A stretch of DNA of 33,089 nt, taken from positions 1-33,089 of the forward strand of contig JAQWBP010000024.1 of NCBI GenBank assembly GCA_028706315.1. The letters are read 5' to 3'. Positions 1,037 through 19,390 of this stretch are shown one piece after another. The translations under genes were made by a program, and so were the position numbers. The DNA is from Syntrophomonadaceae bacterium (GTDB lineage: Bacteria > Bacillota > Syntrophomonadia > Syntrophomonadales > Syntrophomonadaceae). The notes below the pieces were generated by a model that ran no database searches, was not told the origin of the DNA, and saw nothing but the letters and a program-made list of their open reading frames with translations. The stretch's first letter is position 1; the number at the start of each line of letters is the position of its first letter.

Positions 1037-1085
1037 TCAATTAGTGCAGCGGGTCTTGCCCGGCTCCAGCTTCCTCATCTCCGAA
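1037..1085 (-). pseudogene. C-terminal tail of a MATE exporter gene (relic)
   Basis: The minus strand encodes SEMRKLEPGKTRCTN and a stop. This nearly equals the C-terminus of the intact MATE protein at 18026-19390 (SEMRKLEPGWTDCTDCN). At the DNA level, 1058-1085 matches 18053-18080 at 27 of 28 bases, and similarity continues to about 1027 with one 1-nt gap. The similarity stops abruptly at 1085/1086, exactly where the HEARO RNA begins. The rest of this second MATE gene is absent. The simplest reading is that the IscB element inserted into the 3' part of a MATE paralogue and a later deletion removed the remainder. Confidence 0.75.
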
Positions 1086-2028: not shown

Positions 2029-4095
2029 ATGAAAGTCAAGGAAATAATGACGTCTAATCCGTATGTGTTTACAATTGACCAAACCATTAAAGAGGCTGCT
2101 GAGGTTTTCTTAGAAAGGCAAATTGATGGAGCTCCGGTGGTTGATAACCAGGAAAAACTGATGGGCTTATTTTGTAAAGCGCAGCTTTTTCAGGCCGTTT
2201 CGGAAGAAATAGATTTAAACCAGCCGGTGAAGGTAATTATGGTTAACAACGTAGTAACCCTTGAGCCTGATGATGATATAGAAAAAGTTTTTACTGTGAA
2301 CCGCAGCAGACTTCCAGTAGTAGTAAATGGAAAGGTTATTGGTATTGTTACTAAATCTGACATCATCTCGAACTACCATAGGAAAATTAATGACTTAACA
2401 AATAAGTTACAGACGGTAATTGCCTCAGTTTATAATGCCATTATTAGTATAGACATCGACGGAAGGATTGCAATTTTCAACCAGGCAGCAGAAAGAATTT
2501 TCGGTAAGAAAAAAGAAGAGGTACTTGGTCTGCCATACCAGGATATGTTCATTAATGGCCGCCTGATGGAAGTTCTAACTACCGGGAAAACTATAACTAC
2601 TTACGAAGTTATATATAATGGAAAAACCTTGTTGTCTAATGTAAGCCCTATTATGCAGAATAATAGAATAATAGGAGCAGTTTCTGTCTTTCAGGACATA
2701 TCAGAGTTAGAAAAAATCTCTGAAGAATTGACTAATACTCGTAAGATTAAGGATGAAATGGACGCTGTTTTTGAAGCTTCCTATGATTATATTTTTATAA
2801 CTGATGCCGAAGGGCGAGTGCAAAAAGTAAACCAGGCCTATTATCGCATTACCGGCATAAAACCGGAAGAAATAATTGGCAAGACCATGTATGAATTGGT
2901 GGCGCTAGGCTTTTATGATAGGTCGTGTACCATTGAGGTTATTGAAACTTTAAAACCGGTTACTTTCACGCAAAAGATAAAAACGGGGAAAACAGTACTA
3001 GTCACGGGGAATCCAGTTTTTAATGAAAAAGGTGAGTTATCTAGTGTAGTAACTAATGGTCGCGATATTACTGAACTTAACCTGCTCAAGCAAGAAGTTG
3101 AACATGTACAAGGAATAAGCCAGCATTATAAAAGGGAACTTACTAGAATACAGGGGTTGAGTGGCTGTGTTATAAACTCACAAGTTATGAAAGATCTAAT
3201 GGATTTTGTCGTACATTTAGCAAAATTTGATTCGGCAGTACTTATTGTTGGCGAGTCGGGTGTGGGCAAGGAAATTGTCGCCCATCAGATTTACATCAAC
3301 AGCAACAGAAAAAATAAGCAGTATATCCGTATTAACTGTGCGGCTATACCGGAAAGTCTGCTGGAATCAGAATTATTCGGTTATACTGACGGTGCATTTA
3401 CCGGGGCCAAAAAAGGCGGTAAGATGGGAATATTTGAATTAGCTAACGGAGGTACTTTACTCCTGGATGAAATTGGGGAACTGCCGCTGGCGGTACAGGC
3501 TAAACTATTAAGGGTTATACAGGAAAACGAGGTAACCAGGATTGGGGGAACTAACCCAATTAAAATTGATGTCCGCTTGATAACCTCAACTAACCGGGAT
3601 ATCCAAAAAATGGTGGAAAATAAACAGTTTAGAGAAGACTTGTTCTATAGATTGAATGTAGTACCTATAAAAGTACCGCCCCTTCGGGAAAGAAAAGAGG
3701 AGATACCGGCTTTAGTGGAGCATTTTTTAAAAAAATTTAATGATAAATATCATCTGAATAAGTATTTAGCCCCCCGATTAATGGACAGCTTGATGGCTTA
3801 TGAATGGCCCGGCAACGTACGGGAATTGAAAAATGTAATTGAACGCGCTATAGTAACTAGCCCGGAGTCGGTTATTAGAGAAATTAAATGGAGTAGTGAA
3901 AACCATGGGGATCAGATTAGATTTAACGACAAAATTACTATGAAGAAGGTAGTGGAAGAAGTTGAAAAAGATTTGATTGTAAAGTACTTACGTAAGTACC
4001 GAACTACCAGAAAAACAGCTGCAGCTTTAGGAATAAGTCAAACAACCCTGTGTCGAAAAGCGGCTCAATACAATATAAATCTAAGGCATGGTTAA
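2029..4095 (+). CDS. Sigma-54-dependent activator with CBS and PAS sensor domains
   Basis: The product is 688 aa with ribosome site GGTGGAGG before ATG 2029. Domain order: two CBS repeats (about 1-120; families of this fold bind adenine nucleotides), PAS (about 125-225), PAS (about 245-345), AAA+ sigma-54 interaction domain (about 375-610), and a Fis-type helix-turn-helix at the C-terminus (TRKTAAALGISQTTL). Walker A is GESGVGKE (about 408), the sigma-54 contact loop GAFTGA is at about 455, and Walker B is LLLDEIGE. There is no receiver domain, so it senses ligands rather than phosphorylation. It stands directly upstream of the operon at 4422, which has a -24/-12 promoter, and probably also controls the promoter at 11453. 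The ligand is unknown. Confidence 0.93.
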   Translation: MKVKEIMTSNPYVFTIDQTIKEAAEVFLERQIDGAPVVDNQEKLMGLFCKAQLFQAVSEEIDLNQPVKVIMVNNVVTLEPDDDIEKVFTVNRSRLPVVVNGKVIGIVTKSDIISNYHRKINDLTNKLQTVIASVYNAIISIDIDGRIAIFNQAAERIFGKKKEEVLGLPYQDMFINGRLMEVLTTGKTITTYEVIYNGKTLLSNVSPIMQNNRIIGAVSVFQDISELEKISEELTNTRKIKDEMDAVFEASYDYIFITDAEGRVQKVNQAYYRITGIKPEEIIGKTMYELVALGFYDRSCTIEVIETLKPVTFTQKIKTGKTVLVTGNPVFNEKGELSSVVTNGRDITELNLLKQEVEHVQGISQHYKRELTRIQGLSGCVINSQVMKDLMDFVVHLAKFDSAVLIVGESGVGKEIVAHQIYINSNRKNKQYIRINCAAIPESLLESELFGYTDGAFTGAKKGGKMGIFELANGGTLLLDEIGELPLAVQAKLLRVIQENEVTRIGGTNPIKIDVRLITSTNRDIQKMVENKQFREDLFYRLNVVPIKVPPLRERKEEIPALVEHFLKKFNDKYHLNKYLAPRLMDSLMAYEWPGNVRELKNVIERAIVTSPESVIREIKWSSENHGDQIRFNDKITMKKVVEEVEKDLIVKYLRKYRTTRKTAAALGISQTTLCRKAAQYNINLRHG

Positions 4096-11554: not shown

Positions 11555-13027
11555 GTGCCTTTAAAGAAACCGCAGGAGTATATTGATGAACTGAGGCAAA
11601 TGGATATTAACCTGTATATGCTTGGTGAAAAGGTAGATAATTATGTGGATCATCCGATTATCAGACCCTCCATTAATGCCATGGCTATGACTTACAAGTT
11701 AGCTCAGGAACCAGAATACGAAGATTTGATGACAGCTACCTCCAGTCTTACCGGAAAAAAAATCAACCGTTTTACCCACCTGCATCAAAGTTCGGAAGAT
11801 CTTGTTAAAAAAGTTAAAATGCAAAGACTGTTAGGACAAAAAACCGGTTGCTGTTTTCAAAGATGTGTAGGTATGGATGCATTTAATGCAGTTTTCAGTA
11901 CCTCCTATGAAATTGATGGAATTGGGGGGACTAATTACCATGAACGTTTTAAAACGTTTATGAAATATGTACAGGAAAAGGATCTGGCAGTAGACGGCTG
12001 TATGACTGATGCCCGCGGTGATAGATCTAAAAGCCCTGGTGCCCAAAAGGATCCTGATGCCTACCTGCACGTAGTAGAGCGGCGTAAAGACGGGGTAGTA
12101 GTCAGAGGGTGCAAACTTCACCAGACCGGAATGATTAACTCCCATGAAATATTAGTAATGCCCAACAATGCCTTAAAGAAGGGAGAAGAAGACTGGGCAA
12201 TATCTTTTGCCATACCATTAGATACTCCCGGTATGATTTATGTTTATGGCCGACAGTCATGTGATACCCGCAAATTAGAAGGCGGGGATATTGATCCCGG
12301 CAACAAGTATTTTGGCGGTCAGGAAGTAATGACTATATTTAACAATGTGTTTATACCCTGGGAAAGAATCTTCCTGGATGGTGAAACCGAATTTGCTGGC
12401 ATGCTAGTAGAGCGTTTTGCAGGTTATCATCGCCAGAGTTACGGAGGATGTAAAGTGGGAGTAGGAGACACCTTAATCGGTGCTGCCAAGGCCATAACCG
12501 ACTATCAGGGAGCCTCTCGTGCTTCCCATGTCAAAGATAAAATAATTGAAATGTGTCACCTGAATGAGACTTTATACTCCAGCGGAATTGCCTGTTCAGC
12601 TGAGGGAAGGAAGACGGCAGCGGGGAACTATCTTATCGACCTGCTGCTGGCTAATGTATGTAAACAAAATGTTACCCGCTTTCCGTATGAAATGGCCAGG
12701 ATTGCCCAGGATTTAGCTGGCGGATATATAGTAACCATGCCTTCTCAGAAGGACTTTGAACATCCAGAAATAGGGGAATTGGTTAAAAAATATTCCTCCT
12801 GCAGCAGTACAGTTCCGGTAGAACACCGCCAGCGTATGCTACGTTTCATTGAAAACCTGACTATGGGCTGTGCAGCAGTAGGTTATCTTACTGAATCAAT
12901 GCATGGAGCCGGTTCACCCCAGGCTCAAAGAATAATGATTTCCCGGCTGGTTGATTTGCAGTACCGCAAAGACCTGGCAGAGAAATTATGTGGTATACAA
13001 GAAAATCATGATCTTGACTGGAAATAA
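11555..13027 (+). CDS. abfD: 4-hydroxybutyryl-CoA dehydratase / vinylacetyl-CoA delta-isomerase
   Basis: The product is 490 aa, about the length of the Clostridium aminobutyricum enzyme. It converts 4-hydroxybutyryl-CoA to crotonyl-CoA by a radical mechanism using FAD and a [4Fe-4S] cluster. All cluster ligands are present: C100 and C104 in CCFQRC (C99/C103 in the reference), and H292 and C299 in HRQSYGGCK. Y296, K300, E257 (GGQE) and a glutamate equivalent to E455 (E447, TESMHG) are also kept, so it should be active. The start is GTG with GGGGG upstream. It is first in a sigma-54 operon with the CoA-transferase. The extra C99 next to the ligand Cys is a small oddity. Confidence 0.95.
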   Translation: MPLKKPQEYIDELRQMDINLYMLGEKVDNYVDHPIIRPSINAMAMTYKLAQEPEYEDLMTATSSLTGKKINRFTHLHQSSEDLVKKVKMQRLLGQKTGCCFQRCVGMDAFNAVFSTSYEIDGIGGTNYHERFKTFMKYVQEKDLAVDGCMTDARGDRSKSPGAQKDPDAYLHVVERRKDGVVVRGCKLHQTGMINSHEILVMPNNALKKGEEDWAISFAIPLDTPGMIYVYGRQSCDTRKLEGGDIDPGNKYFGGQEVMTIFNNVFIPWERIFLDGETEFAGMLVERFAGYHRQSYGGCKVGVGDTLIGAAKAITDYQGASRASHVKDKIIEMCHLNETLYSSGIACSAEGRKTAAGNYLIDLLLANVCKQNVTRFPYEMARIAQDLAGGYIVTMPSQKDFEHPEIGELVKKYSSCSSTVPVEHRQRMLRFIENLTMGCAAVGYLTESMHGAGSPQAQRIMISRLVDLQYRKDLAEKLCGIQENHDLDWK

Positions 13028-13134
13028 CATTGAAAAATAAGTAATGAGGAAGTTGTTAGGCGACTACTGTGATTAACGCTAGCGGAATTCCCCAAAGTAA
13101 CTAAAATCTTATAGATAGAAGAGGAGGAAATATC

Positions 13135-14448
13135 TTGTTCAACTGGCGAGATTATTATAAGAGTAGAACTTGTACGGCTGAAGAGGCGGTAAAATGTATA
13201 AAATCCGGAGATAACGTTGTGGTGGGTCATGCTTGTGGTGAACCCCAGATCTTGACTCAGGCTATGAGCGCCAGATATCAAGAACTTGAAAATGTAAAAG
13301 TTATTCACCGGGTAGGACAGGGCAAATCATTGTATGCTGCTCCGGGTATGGAAGGCCATTTCCGGCATGTTTCCCTATTTGCTGGTCCTAGTACTCGCCA
13401 GGCCATCTATGAAGGCCGAGCAGATTTTATTCCTCGGTTTATTTCTGAAATACCCGAACTCTTTAGCCGGGGACACATACCGGTTGATGTGGCTTTAGTT
13501 TCGGTTAGTCCTCCCGATCAATACGGGTGTTGCAGCCTAGGCATATCGGTTGACTATACCATGAAGGCAGCTAAATCAGCCAAAATTATTGTAGCCGAAG
13601 TCAACAGCAACATGCCTAGAACTCATGGAGACTCATTTTTAAGAGTTGAGGAAATTGACTATTTTGTTCAGTCAGATATGCCTTTAATAGAAATACCCAG
13701 GCCGGTTGTAACCAAAGTTGAAAAGGAAATTGGTGACCATATAGCAGATCTGATTGAAGATGGGGCTACCCTGCAGATGGGCATAGGGGCTATTCCGGAT
13801 GCTATTTTAAGTTCCCTGCACGACAAACATGATTTAGGTATACATACCGAAATGTTTTCTGATGGGGTTATGGAGTTAGTAGAATCTGGAGTCATTAATT
13901 GCTCTAACAAGTCTTTACATCCAAATAAAATTATTTCTACTTTCATAATGGGTACCAAAAAGCTTTATGAATGGGTAGATGACAATCCGATGATAGAAAT
14001 GCACTCAGAAGACTACGTTAACGATCCCCTGGTTATTATGCAGAACAACAACATGATTTCCATTAACTCTGCTCTTCAGGTTGACGTATTAGGACAGGTG
14101 GCTGCTGATACCATGGGAGCAAAACAGTACAGTGGGGTAGGTGGACAGGTGGACTTTATTCGTGGGGTCAAACGTACCCCTGGAGGTAAATCGATTATAG
14201 CTATACCTTCTACTGCTGCTAAAGGGAAAATTAGCCGCATCGTTCCGGCGCTTTATGAAGGAACTGCGGTTACCACCAGTCGCAATGAGGTTGATTACAT
14301 AGTGACTGAATACGGAGTAGCCAAACTGCAAGGAAAAACTAACCAAGAAAGGTTAAAGGCACTGGTTAATATTTGCCATCCTGATTTTAGGAAAGAGGTA
14401 TGGGGAAAAGCCAACCTGCTCTACTACGGTGGAAATCTAGTTTTTTAG
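13135..14448 (+). CDS. abfT: 4-hydroxybutyrate (acetyl/butyryl-CoA) CoA-transferase
   Basis: The product is 437 aa of the acetyl-CoA hydrolase/transferase family, about the length of AbfT (438). Catalytic Glu239 lies in HTEMFSDGVMEL, and the CoA-binding glycine-rich stretch GVGGQVDFIRG follows. It transfers CoA from acetyl- or butyryl-CoA to 4-hydroxybutyrate, supplying the dehydratase encoded just upstream. The start is TTG at 13135, chosen for the strong GAGGAGG site five bases before it. The gap of 107 nt after abfD has no terminator. The stop is followed immediately by a transposase remnant, but the C-terminus looks complete. Confidence 0.92.
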   Translation: MFNWRDYYKSRTCTAEEAVKCIKSGDNVVVGHACGEPQILTQAMSARYQELENVKVIHRVGQGKSLYAAPGMEGHFRHVSLFAGPSTRQAIYEGRADFIPRFISEIPELFSRGHIPVDVALVSVSPPDQYGCCSLGISVDYTMKAAKSAKIIVAEVNSNMPRTHGDSFLRVEEIDYFVQSDMPLIEIPRPVVTKVEKEIGDHIADLIEDGATLQMGIGAIPDAILSSLHDKHDLGIHTEMFSDGVMELVESGVINCSNKSLHPNKIISTFIMGTKKLYEWVDDNPMIEMHSEDYVNDPLVIMQNNNMISINSALQVDVLGQVAADTMGAKQYSGVGGQVDFIRGVKRTPGGKSIIAIPSTAAKGKISRIVPALYEGTAVTTSRNEVDYIVTEYGVAKLQGKTNQERLKALVNICHPDFRKEVWGKANLLYYGGNLVF

Positions 14449-15342
14449 GGAGGCGACAACAGATAAAAAAGGGCATAGCATCATGAGCAGAATCAAGCAA
14501 AACTTTGCTCCAAGACCATTCAGGATAGCGAAAGCGAAACTCCTCGGCAGTTAGAAACATGGATATAGAATCATGGCGGGAAGCCGGGTGTAAACGGCAA
14601 TATATGGGCAGATCGTACTTGCTGGCAGTAGTGGAAAAAGAGTAGAGATGGTAGCCATTAAAAAAGCTTGACGGTAACTATCCCAACCAGAATTACAGTC
14701 AGGTTGAGAATAGATTCGTGGGCAATCACAGTTAGAAATACCATTTTGTTTACAGTTGCATATTCGTTTATTACGAGGATAAGCAGCAGTTCGTACCGGG
14801 GTACCATCACCAGCCAGGCAAAGCGAATTGACATCGCCCAAGATACCAAGGCTAGCGGAATGCAAAACAAAAAGTTCTTTAAACAAAGTGAAAATGCGGT
14901 CAAAAGGGAACACTTTTTGACGAGTAGGAGCGTGATCAAGGGCTTTAACCACCTTCGCCACTTTACCTGAAGAAGTTGTAGGAGCCTTATCGCCTTTATG
15001 TTTTCCCTTCTCAATTTTTTTAGGTTTGTGTTTAAGTTTACTCCAAAAATTAGGATTATCAGTTAGCTAAAGGCGGGTAAAAAAGTCATAAAAAGTGCCG
15101 ATGCCGGGCGTTTTACCTGGAAGGAAGCCACTTAAGACAGCAAACAAGGGAACTCGGCGTAATGCAGTAACCCATTTGGTCACCGAGAAGGTTCCTGTCA
15201 GGTGCATCAAAATATAAGATCTGAGCAAATCGGCAGGATCATGAGGGCAAGGCCCCTCATCGCGATTATGGAGATATTTTTGAAATGTCAAGGGGTAAGG
15301 CGAAAAAAGATTAGTAAAAAATAAGGTATTTATCTTTGCTGG
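14449..15342 (-). pseudogene. Remnant of a DDE (IS1182/IS4-like) transposase
   Basis: Read on the minus strand from about 15342: SPYPLTFQKYLHNRDEGPCP, then ADLLRSYILMHLTGTFSVTKW and PGIGTFYDFFTRL, an in-frame stop near 15066, then KLKHKPKKIEKGKHKG, GDGTPVRTAAYPRNKRICNC and a Cys-rich NCDCPRIYSQPDCNSGWDSYR. A frameshift near 14640 is followed by KYDLPIYCRLHPASRHDSIS and EFRFRYPEWSWSKVLLDSAHDA. This order is that of transposases with a D-G-T-P-V active-site block and a C-x-C cluster. The N-terminus and the end after DSAHDA are missing, and no terminal repeats are seen. It sits between abfT and the acyl-CoA dehydrogenase and points against them. Confidence 0.8.
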
Positions 15343-15498
15343 TTACAAGCACAGATGTATTAACATTATTGCCAAATTATGTTACCGGGTTGTGACCAAT
15401 TAATTGGAGGAAATAAAATTAGGTAGCTCATGGCAAAACCACTAGCTACCTCACTCGGAGAATTCCGAGAGACTATTTTAGGAAAGGGAGGAACTAAA

Positions 15499-16641
15499 AT
15501 GGATTTTAGTCTGCCTGAGGAACATGAAATGATCAAGCAAAGTGTAAGGGCATTTGCTGAGGATGTTTTGGGACCTAAGGTAGCTGAGCGTGATGAGCGT
15601 GAGTATTTCGATAAACAAGTCTATAACCAGATGGGAGAACTGGGCCTAACCGGCATACCATTCGAACCAGAATGGGGTGGTTCAGACATAGACTATGTGG
15701 CTTATGCGGTTGCGGTCGAAGAGCTGGGAAGGGTTGACCCTTCTGCAGCCGACACTCTATCCGCCCATGTGAGCCTAGGGGCCTGGCCCATCTGGCAATA
15801 CGGTAATGAGGAGCAGAAAAAGAAATATCTGGTTCCTCTGGTCAAGGGAGAAAAGCAGGGTGCCTTTGGTTTAACTGAACCTAATGCGGGTAGTGATGCT
15901 ATGAGTATGACCACTAAAGCAGTTCTCGACAGGGATGAATATATACTCAACGGTCGCAAAATATTTATCACCAATGCACAAGCAGCCGACACCTATATAG
16001 TTTTTGCTCGCACCGGACCGGTGGAATTAAGGAGTAAGGCTTTCAGTGCATTCATTGTAGAAAAAGGTGTTCCTGGCTTTAGTTTTGGTAAGTTTGAGAA
16101 AAAAATGGGCTTAAGAGGTACTCAGAACTGTGATTTGATATTTGAAGACTGCAGGATTCCCAAAGAGAACCTATTAGGAGAAGAAGGACAAGGCTTTAAA
16201 ATTGCTATGAGTACTCTGGATGGGGGGAGAATTGGCATAGCTGCACAGTCGGTAGGTATTGCTCAGGGGGCTTATGAACAAGCTGTAGCTTATGCCAAGC
16301 AAAGGGTTCAATTTGGTAAGCCTATTGCTGCTCTTCAGGCCATTCAATTTAAACTGGCTGATATGGCTACAGAAATTCAGGCTGCAAGGATGTTAACCTA
16401 TTTGGCCGCTTGGAAAAAATCACTAAACCAGCCTTTCGCGTTGGAGGCAGCCATGGCGAAATTAAAAGCTTCAGAGACAGCAATGTGGGTAACAAATCAA
16501 ACCGTACAAATCTTTGGTGGCTACGGTTATACCCGTGAATATCCGGTGGAGCGCATGATGCGCGATGCAAAGATATGTGAAATTTACGAAGGAACTAGCG
16601 AAATTCAAAGAGTAGTTATCAGTAGCAATGTTTTGAGATAG
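15499..16641 (+). CDS. Short-chain acyl-CoA dehydrogenase (butyryl-CoA dehydrogenase-like)
   Basis: The product is 380 aa, a FAD enzyme oxidising short-chain acyl-CoA to the trans-2-enoyl-CoA (or the reverse) with an electron-transfer flavoprotein. Catalytic glutamate E364 lies in IYEGTSEIQ, the position used by short-chain enzymes. FAD/CoA blocks GLTEPNAGSDA and GGYGYTREYPVERMMRDAKI are present. I chose ATG 15499, with GGGAGG ahead, over an in-frame ATG at 15430 that would add 23 non-family residues and lacks a well-spaced ribosome site. An 8-bp inverted repeat AGGTAGCT/AGCTACCT (15420-15450) lies upstream. It probably belonged to the abf operon before the transposon arrived. No etfAB genes are in view. 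Confidence 0.92.
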   Translation: MDFSLPEEHEMIKQSVRAFAEDVLGPKVAERDEREYFDKQVYNQMGELGLTGIPFEPEWGGSDIDYVAYAVAVEELGRVDPSAADTLSAHVSLGAWPIWQYGNEEQKKKYLVPLVKGEKQGAFGLTEPNAGSDAMSMTTKAVLDRDEYILNGRKIFITNAQAADTYIVFARTGPVELRSKAFSAFIVEKGVPGFSFGKFEKKMGLRGTQNCDLIFEDCRIPKENLLGEEGQGFKIAMSTLDGGRIGIAAQSVGIAQGAYEQAVAYAKQRVQFGKPIAALQAIQFKLADMATEIQAARMLTYLAAWKKSLNQPFALEAAMAKLKASETAMWVTNQTVQIFGGYGYTREYPVERMMRDAKICEIYEGTSEIQRVVISSNVLR

Positions 16642-16658
16642 GTTCGGAGGTGGATTTT

Positions 16659-17081
16659 GTGAGCTATGATGCAAAAATAAAAAAATGGGAAGATATTGAA
16701 CTCGGCAATACAGTCAGCTTTACCAAGACCATCACCGAGACAGATGTTATTATCTGGGTTGGCCTTACCGGTGACATGAATCCAATTCACATCGACAAGG
16801 TATATAGCAAGGGTACGCGGTTTGGTGATGTTATAGTTCCCGGAATATTAGTATTAGGGCTGATTTCAAATGTTATCACCCAGGCAACTTTTGGCAATGT
16901 ATACGCCAATCAGAACATAAAATTCTTAAAACCTGTATATATAGGAGACACAATTACTGCAGCTGCGACTATCATTGAAAAAATTGATGCTAAAAATATG
17001 GTGAAGATTGAAACCAAGTGTACCAACCAAGACGGCGCGTTGGTCATGATTGGGGAAGGAATGGAATATATTTTAAGATAA
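16659..17081 (+). CDS. MaoC-like (R)-specific enoyl-CoA hydratase
   Basis: The product is 140 aa with a hot-dog fold. The catalytic Asp-x4-His pair lies in GDMNPIHID, with the FGDVIVPGILVLGLIS helix following, as in PhaJ. It hydrates crotonyl-CoA to (R)-3-hydroxybutyryl-CoA or the reverse. The GTG at 16659 is the likely start, 8 nt after CGGAGG; an upstream in-frame GTG at 16650 overlaps that site. It lies 17 nt after the acyl-CoA dehydrogenase, so the two are co-transcribed. Together with the abf genes it places crotonyl-CoA at the centre of this cluster. Confidence 0.88.
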   Translation: MSYDAKIKKWEDIELGNTVSFTKTITETDVIIWVGLTGDMNPIHIDKVYSKGTRFGDVIVPGILVLGLISNVITQATFGNVYANQNIKFLKPVYIGDTITAAATIIEKIDAKNMVKIETKCTNQDGALVMIGEGMEYILR

Positions 17082-17242: not shown

Positions 17243-17403
17243 ATGTCAGAAGTAATTGCCAGGGTCGTTAATTTTGAAGGGGACCTTATAATACTGAGTT
17301 TTGAAGAAAAGGCTAGTATTATATAGAAGTTTGTGAATCGTTAGGCTTAAATTCTCGCAGAGCCGTTCAGGCCTCAGCTGTCGTTCCAGTCGCCGAGGCT
17401 TAA
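17243..17403 (+). pseudogene. Small broken gene of about 52 codons, family unknown
   Basis: ATG 17243 follows GAAGG and opens 27 codons (MSEVIARVVNFEGDLIILSF near the start), ending at TAG 17324. Two bases later another frame continues protein-like: VCESLGLNSRRAVQASAVV, ending in AEA and a stop at 17401-17403. Joining the two by one frameshift near 17327 gives a plausible 50-odd-residue protein. The family is not recognised. Its end overlaps the end of the convergent plsY-like gene. A sequencing error at the shift cannot be excluded. Confidence 0.4.
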
Positions 17404-17894
17404 TACGATAGCACAGGATTGGCCTGCGAAATTGCGCTTTGGGCGTTATCCGCACCTATTTTCCTGAAGAAGGATAGATATGTTCGCCATAAATATAAGC
17501 ATGAGACAAAAAGGATCCAACCAGACGCAAAAGCTAAAATAGGCCCAAACTGACCTGCGGCCAATACCGCCCCCAGAGCAGTTGCCAGGCCTTTTCCTCC
17601 TTGAAACCCCAGCCATATCGGGTAAATGTGTCCTAGAACCACCAGGCAGGCCAGGAGTAATGCGGGTAATGCAGTCATCGTGGTATCTAGATAAACAGCC
17701 GCTGCACCTTTGACCACATCAATTATGAAAACAAAAATCGCAGCAGGCCAGCCCAGCACCGCGCGCGTGTTCATAGTTCCTACGTTGCCGCTTCCGTATC
17801 GGCGGATATCGATACCCCGACTTAATCGTCCCACGATATACGCGCTGGGGATCCTACCCAGCAGATAGGATATTCGCAGAGCGGTGGCTATCAT
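17400..17894 (-). CDS. plsY: PlsY-like acyl-phosphate:glycerol-3-phosphate acyltransferase, C-terminally shortened
   Basis: The product is about 164 aa against roughly 190-210 for PlsY, which makes lysophosphatidic acid at the membrane. Family motifs are present: YLLGRIPSAYIVGRL, IDIRRYGSGNVGTMN and LGFQGGKGLATALG. After about residue 136 (LYLWRTYLS) the sequence becomes polar and unlike PlsY (FRKIGADNAQSAISQ), so the last membrane segments are missing, probably through a frameshift or rearrangement. AAGAGG lies upstream; ATG 17892-17894 is a reasonable start, TTG 17897 or ATG 17930 are alternatives. It may be a failing paralogue, since plsY is normally essential in organisms relying on it. 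Confidence 0.7.
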   Translation of the reverse strand: MIATALRISYLLGRIPSAYIVGRLSRGIDIRRYGSGNVGTMNTRAVLGWPAAIFVFIIDVVKGAAAVYLDTTMTALPALLLACLVVLGHIYPIWLGFQGGKGLATALGAVLAAGQFGPILAFASGWILFVSCLYLWRTYLSFFRKIGADNAQSAISQANPVLSY

Positions 17895-18025
17895 CAATGT
17901 AATCAATCCTCTTATTATCAAACCATGCAAAGCATCTGGGGTAGTATTTCCTTATAATACCAACAACTGTTTCCTTTAACAATTCAACCAGAGCTACGGG
18001 GGCAGCTAGGTAGTAAGTAAATTAA

Positions 18026-19390
18026 TTAGTTGCAATCAGTGCAGTCAGTCCAGCCCGGCTCCAGCTTTCTCATCTCCGAAAATATAAAGATAGTTGTTAA
18101 GATAACTGATAATAAGTCAGCGATAGGTGCAGTCCTCCATACACCGTCTATACCCCAGAAATGCGGTAAAACTAGCAAGAGGGGTATAAAAAACAAAACT
18201 TGTCTGGATAAACTGAGTACAGCTGATTGGCGCGCTTTGCCTACTGCCTGGAAATAGGTAGAACTAATCACCTGGAAACCTATTACTGGCAGCACCGCAA
18301 AGAAGATCATCATAGCGTGAGTAGTCATGACTGTTAGCGCAGTATCACCATTACTGAATAACTCCACCAGTGGGGTAGGCCAGATGCGAATAGCCAGGTA
18401 TCCTACTAAAGCAATACAAGTACCTGCCCAAACTGCCTTTTTCCATGTTTCCTTAACTCGCCCATACTGCCGGGCTCCATAATTGAAACCAATAATCGGC
18501 TGTGCTCCCTGGCTCAATCCTAATACCGGCATAAACAACAAGGTGGATATACTCATCATAATACCAACCGCAGATAAGGCCATATCTCCACCGTAGACCA
18601 TCAAGGTTTTGTTTAATATAAGCTGCTGTATACTAGAGGCAGTTTGCATGGCAAAAGGGGCAAAACCAATGGCCATAATACTGGTCAGAACAGGCCAGGC
18701 CGGCTTGAGATTTTTTAAACGGATTTTTATCAAACTTTTTCCAGTAAAGAAATAACCTAATACCCAGATAGCTGAAACCAGCTGGGCTATTATGGTGGCC
18801 AGGGCTGATCCCCTCATGCCCCAGCCATAAATAAAGATAAAAACATAGTTTAAAGCTACATTAATTACCGCACCTAATAACTGCGTATACATTGCCATTT
18901 TAGGATTACCTTCCGCTCGGATGAAGTTATTCATACCCATACTAACCGAGCCAAAAACCGAGCCTAGCATAATAATTTGCATGAAATCTTTGGCATAAGG
19001 CAGCACTGCTTTACTAGCCCCAAAAGCAATTAAGATCGGCTCTGTAAAAAGCAGGAATATGATGGCTAAAATAGCTGGTAAAAGGATTAACATACCCATG
19101 GCATTCCCGGCTACCTTTTCTGCTTCGTCCTTTTTCTGCTCTCCCAGACGAATCGATATCAGAGCTGTAGCCCCAACCCCTATTAAAAGGGAAACTGCCA
19201 TCAGTAGAATCATAATAGGAAAAGCGACAGTAGTTGCTGCTATCGCAATTGCTCCGATTCCTCGGCCTACAAATATTCTGTCTATAACATTGTAAAGCGA
19301 GTTTACTAACATTCCGACAATAGTCGGCAAGGAAAAAGTCCACAACAGCCTGCCGATGCTTTGACCTCGCATTTCTTCTGAACGGTCCAT
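18026..19390 (-). CDS. MATE family multidrug/sodium antiporter
   Basis: The product is 454 aa with twelve hydrophobic segments. The MATE pattern is clear: GRLLWTFSLPTIVGMLVNSLYN at the N-terminus (segment 1), and GLSQGAQPIIGFNYGARQYGRVKE at the start of the second half. It exports cationic drugs or metabolites in exchange for H+ or Na+. AAAAGGAG precedes the ATG at 19390. A TATAAT at 19465-19470 on the minus strand is a possible -10 box. The last 15 codons are nearly identical in DNA to the relic at 1037-1085, showing that a second copy of this gene once existed. Confidence 0.92.
   Translation of the reverse strand: MDRSEEMRGQSIGRLLWTFSLPTIVGMLVNSLYNVIDRIFVGRGIGAIAIAATTVAFPIMILLMAVSLLIGVGATALISIRLGEQKKDEAEKVAGNAMGMLILLPAILAIIFLLFTEPILIAFGASKAVLPYAKDFMQIIMLGSVFGSVSMGMNNFIRAEGNPKMAMYTQLLGAVINVALNYVFIFIYGWGMRGSALATIIAQLVSAIWVLGYFFTGKSLIKIRLKNLKPAWPVLTSIMAIGFAPFAMQTASSIQQLILNKTLMVYGGDMALSAVGIMMSISTLLFMPVLGLSQGAQPIIGFNYGARQYGRVKETWKKAVWAGTCIALVGYLAIRIWPTPLVELFSNGDTALTVMTTHAMMIFFAVLPVIGFQVISSTYFQAVGKARQSAVLSLSRQVLFFIPLLLVLPHFWGIDGVWRTAPIADLLSVILTTIFIFSEMRKLEPGWTDCTDCN

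Follow-up and report, generated by a model that had tools for sequence, protein, structure and literature searches.

IscB-type mobile elements are RNA-guided and related to Cas9. The stretch of DNA analysed here (the window, 33,089 nucleotides) carries a HEARO RNA whose 5' flank closely resembles the end of a MATE transporter gene about 17 kb from the element remnant. This raises the question of whether an IscB element once landed in a second MATE gene and took its guide from it, and whether such a guide could have directed IscB to the surviving copy; an earlier note had answered yes to both. On balance we favour an insertion in a second MATE copy that was lost afterwards, followed by decay of the element, with the intact MATE gene probably not a proper target.

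The Rfam HEARO model RF02033 matched positions 1083-1283 of the plus strand from end to end (model positions 1-211) with 84.9 bits at a cut-off of 83, and this is the sole HEARO RNA in the genome. The scaffold is degenerate, the 5' strand of its guide-adaptor hairpin, GTCAACTA, being reduced to GAACA. It is followed on the same strand, at about 1304-1898, by an iscB reading frame (a gene of the PLMP, RuvC and HNH domain type), which tblastn and profile matches identify as a pseudogene only. This remnant corresponds to residues 1 to about 201 of 417 and ends inside the HNH domain (the tblastn match itself covers residues 2-216); it contains several frameshifts and 13 stops. The C-terminal half of iscB and the right end of the element are missing, and neither that right end nor the body of a MATE gene is present in 1899-2028. 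Judged from its sequence, the element is dead; with iscB reduced to a truncated pseudogene, RNA-guided cleavage at present is in practice excluded.

The stretch 1938-1991 (KSIIC) was considered as a leftover of the C-terminus of IscB or of the right end, and rejected: its tblastn E value was 0.03, its DNA alignment score was 33 against 47 for the best of 200 shuffles, and the clade profile gave no support. The ATGA at 2029, the start codon of the sigma-54 gene, was also rejected as the right flank; immediately before it lies a ribosome-binding site belonging to the gene itself, and no end of the element was seen at this point. The product of this gene (2029-4095, directly to the right of the element remnant) is a sigma-54 activator with N-terminal CBS domains and with PAS domains; its orthologues in relatives are about 45-54% identical over the full length and do not lie beside YmaF.

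The intact MATE gene occupies 18026-19390 on the minus strand and matches PF01554 and TIGR00797. The repeat on which the earlier note was built is confirmed, 1058-1085 agreeing with 18053-18080 at 27 of 28 bases, and alignment with the end of the MATE gene showed that it belongs to a longer homology between 1011-1085 and 18005-18080 (76 columns, 83% identity, one gap). This homology spans the last 16 or so MATE codons (SEMRKLEPG...), the stop and a few bases past it. Read in the MATE sense, on the minus strand, the fragment gives CSEMRKLEPGKTRCTN and a stop where the intact gene gives FSEMRKLEPGWTDCTDCN and a stop; one base is missing ahead of the stop of the fragment, and the similarity persists beyond it. 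The likelihood that two such stretches are alike by chance is virtually nil. Two other weak matches of the fragment in relatives are clearly of that kind; here, however, the E value of the alignment is 1.4e-16 for the local comparison and 2.3e-15 when all of the 2.5-Mb genome is searched, and the coding sense, the stop region and the lineage-specific tail all agree. Chance was ruled out by the extent of the alignment.

The fragment at 1011-1085 thus appears as a remnant of a second MATE copy, the paralogue of the intact gene. Most of the closest MATE homologues compared in the family genomes are 65-83% identical to the intact protein, align to about its residue 444 and then continue into unrelated tails. 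The tail common to the fragment and the intact gene was found in no other genome compared; the fragment therefore probably comes from a duplicate younger than the split of these genera. Besides the intact MATE protein, the genome encodes two more that are MATE-like, and these are only 33% and 23% identical. The intact MATE gene, then, resembles the guide through the kinship of two MATE genes.

Other genes of the window were also inspected. Beside the intact MATE gene, 17400-17930 encodes a PlsY-like glycerol-3-phosphate acyltransferase; its profile match covers only 1-120 of 164, and the gene may be shortened. A cluster at 11555-17081 encodes an HpaB-type flavoprotein, a CoA-transferase, an acyl-CoA dehydrogenase and a hot-dog/MaoC-type protein, each scoring far under the NCBIfam cut-offs for named enzymes, so that 4-hydroxybutyrate fermentation is no more than a guess at their pathway.

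To place the edges of the element, we compared it with related elements gathered from genomes of the family, from GTDB and viral contigs, and from plasmid and phage records. The left edges listed for 17 of them show a scaffold that starts with GTCAA or a close variant, and 6-8 of the first 8 scaffold bases pair with a strand further downstream. In the OgeuIscB structure this pairing forms the guide-adaptor hairpin, and the guide is immediately followed by the first base of the hairpin (PMC9640706). The window retains an intact 3' strand of the hairpin, TAGTTGAC, and a 5' strand cut down to GAACA; registers near the junction gave at most 4 of 8 pairs, the level of a random 8-mer, and no guide-adaptor hairpin is thus formed directly behind the guide. 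We read the broken hairpin as decay of a member of the IscB/HEARO family and not as the mark of another family.

The HEARO model aligns G--AAC-A with GTCAACTA. Because the hairpin strand is reduced to GAACA and is aligned from 1083, the guide probably ends at 1082, with an ambiguity of three bases (1082-1085): the GAA at 1083-1085 fits both the MATE match, which runs to 1085, and a remnant of the HEARO 5' arm. The earlier statement that the end of the MATE match coincides exactly with the start of the HEARO RNA accordingly holds to within 3 bases, the covariance model beginning at 1083 and not at 1086. The candidate omega RNA guide is then 1067-1082 on the plus strand, CAGCTTCCTCATCTCC, placed by the start of the HEARO model directly 3' of it and by the left edges of the 17 related elements. 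When this 16-mer was searched for in the window with up to 3 mismatches, only its own site and 18062-18077 were found, at a chance mean of 0.19.

In three viral or phage loci, L103 (2670-2999), L105 (480-808) and L125 (1670-2001; all positions approximate and upstream of iscB), the GTCAA hairpin strand is absent while the remaining HEARO-like RNA is recognisable by eye; these elements may obtain or hold a guide in another way.

The other edge was read from 16 related insertions, and in all 16 the right flank starts with ATGA or ATGG (ATGR), mostly after a hairpin. The edges had been set by eye, and the joins were hence checked independently. Joining the flanks of L124 at these edges gave one open frame whose product is a full-length PALP enzyme by its profile match (1-295 of 295); the joins of L101, L106, L120 and L123 placed a Shine-Dalgarno sequence at normal spacing before the ATG; and for L122 and L123 the ATG of the ATGR is annotated as the start codon of the gene that follows. 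In a tree of the first 202 residues, the window IscB fell inside the ATGR group, beside L124 and L122, with support of 0.73 and 0.92 and a long branch. ATGR appears to be the motif that this IscB clade needs. We infer the motif of the window element itself from these relatives; its own TAM-interacting domain is gone. The motif published for the related DtIsrB is NTGA (PMC9581776). No natural empty sites of the related elements were found by exact or similarity search.

In L101, L106, L120, L122 and L123, the IscB element occupies exactly the gap between a Shine-Dalgarno sequence and the start codon of the downstream gene, so that the start codon gives the ATGR and the Shine-Dalgarno region becomes the guide. 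One Syntrophomonadaceae genome (G006) carries two IscB copies 2.1 kb apart in L018 (2435-3141 and 4544-6004), each with ATGAA behind it; a large part is deleted from within iscB in the first copy, and the second carries a frameshift.

The window junction lies at most 3 bases from the left edge expected from the 17 related elements, and this nearness favours an insertion. We consider the present junction likely, if not proven, to be the original insertion site. The course of events would have been as follows. An IscB element of the IS200/IS605-like type, with HEARO/omega RNA and iscB and belonging to the ATGR-adjacent clade, would have inserted antisense into the coding end of the second MATE gene, so that some 16 bases of this gene, up to 1082, became its guide; the MATE copy would have supplied the ATGR on the other side of the element. 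The hairpin strand adjoining the guide would then have lost about three bases, and iscB would have been disrupted by frameshifts and stops. The second half of iscB and the right end, together with almost the whole second MATE copy, would have disappeared through one or more deletions. Both the nature of the junction and this order of decay are what we infer from the remains.

The main rival is that 1085/1086 is a secondary breakpoint, at which a deletion or rearrangement joined a MATE remnant to a HEARO RNA already without its outer 5' strand and guide, so that 1067-1085 was never a guide. Several observations that weigh against an insertion speak for it. The 5' strand of the hairpin is broken at the junction, GTCAACTA being unrecognisable beyond G..AAC.A and unpaired where relatives keep 6-8 of 8 pairs; the GAA at the edge matches MATE exactly; ATGR is present at this point in none of the 29 MATE genes compared (the intact one and 28 others); and the right side of the locus, which lacks both the right end and the MATE body, certainly underwent another deletion. 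A random break, on the other hand, would have had to land within about 8 bases of the natural edge of the element, and the G, AAC and A can be aligned to the lost strand by two small deletions, small indels being common elsewhere in the pseudogene. We regard a secondary breakpoint as possible but rather doubtful.

The genomes of relatives were also consulted. No uninterrupted second MATE copy was found, the DNA search of 54 family genomes giving chance matches only, and the MATE tails of the relatives differ. Neither kind of empty site was present in the relatives' genomes examined, none of which is of the same genus, and no MATE gene lies beside YmaF or the sigma-54 regulator gene in the relatives examined. 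With the right end and the MATE body absent from 1899-2028, joining the flanks in the window does not restore the target, whereas the same test works in L124. Of the proposal that the element landed in a MATE paralogue, what stands is that a MATE tail adjoins the HEARO scaffold at the guide position and nearly matches the intact gene; the insertion into a second copy is likely but unproven, and the expected uninterrupted gene did not turn up in the relatives examined.

With an insertion into a second MATE copy as the preferred reading, the surviving gene can be examined as a target. The near match to the guide in the intact gene lies at 18062-18077 on the plus strand (15 of 16 bases) and continues at 18078-18089 with GAAAATATAAAG, which is without ATGR. 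The result depends little on the exact guide end: wherever the end is set between 1081 and 1085, 15 of 16 bases agree with the site and the next bases are CGAA, GAAA, AAAA, AAAT or AATA, the continuation for an end at 1085 being AATATAAAG. ATGR was found nowhere within 18051-18120. The guide match is thus present at the intact gene and the motif directly after it is absent. If the guide ends at 1082, the lone mismatch is 10 bases from the motif side and falls inside the stretch from -1 to -13 over which the compact nucleases tested were specific (PMC9755519).

According to the earlier note, the guide would have been able to lead IscB to the MATE gene that survives, with AATATAAAG as the flanking motif. 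In favour of this, the guide agrees with the site at 15 of 16 (or 17 of 18) bases and has no mismatch over the 8 motif-proximal ones, and ATAAA, which some other IscBs use (PMC13180657), is present at 18084-18088. This ATAAA, however, is 3-6 bases off the guide end and does not directly adjoin it; the relatives all have ATGR, and the window IscB groups among them; moreover, the hairpin has been broken and only a pseudogene is left of iscB. We consider such targeting highly improbable. Judging from the related elements, AATATAAAG is not the motif of this IscB clade, and the idea of a second chromosomal target is unsupported, because the MATE site has no ATGR in reach. That a guide from one MATE copy once directed IscB to the other through a motif since lost at 18078-18081, and that cutting or repair between the two copies helped to eliminate one, is scarcely credible. 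The surviving MATE gene was probably never a proper target, and by the same reading of the sequence around it is none now. Nothing can act on the site today, because IscB is a truncated pseudogene and no other IscB was found in the genome.

Unless the flanking motif of the clade is there as well, a near match to a guide says little, and the present case shows how claims of this kind can be tested. Comparison of 16 related insertions made it possible to read the edges and the probable ATGR motif of this IscB clade from sequence alone; they help in judging other IscB relics and provide a testable prediction for intact relatives.

Compared with known systems, the window element is an ordinary relic of a known kind. 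It resembles the IscB/HEARO (OMEGA) elements of the IS200/IS605 type (RF02033; NCBIfam NF040563, guided_IscB) in having a HEARO scaffold with iscB behind it on the same strand and flank sequence directly 5' of the scaffold, at the guide position; it differs in its degeneration, the guide-adaptor hairpin being broken, iscB truncated and rich in stops, and the right end gone. Its closest relatives are L016 (Syntrophomonas sp. BL5_bin.17), L122 and L124. OgeuIscB and OrufIscB are, like the type of the window element, IscBs with a 5' guide and a 3' motif; the motif of OrufIscB is NTAAA (PMC13180657), in contrast to the ATGR flanks among the relatives of the window element. The OMEGA nickase IsrB (DtIsrB) is a related effector whose published motif is close to the ATGR of this clade (PMC9581776), but IsrB has no HNH domain and a longer RNA; the window remnant extends into the HNH domain and is therefore not an IsrB.
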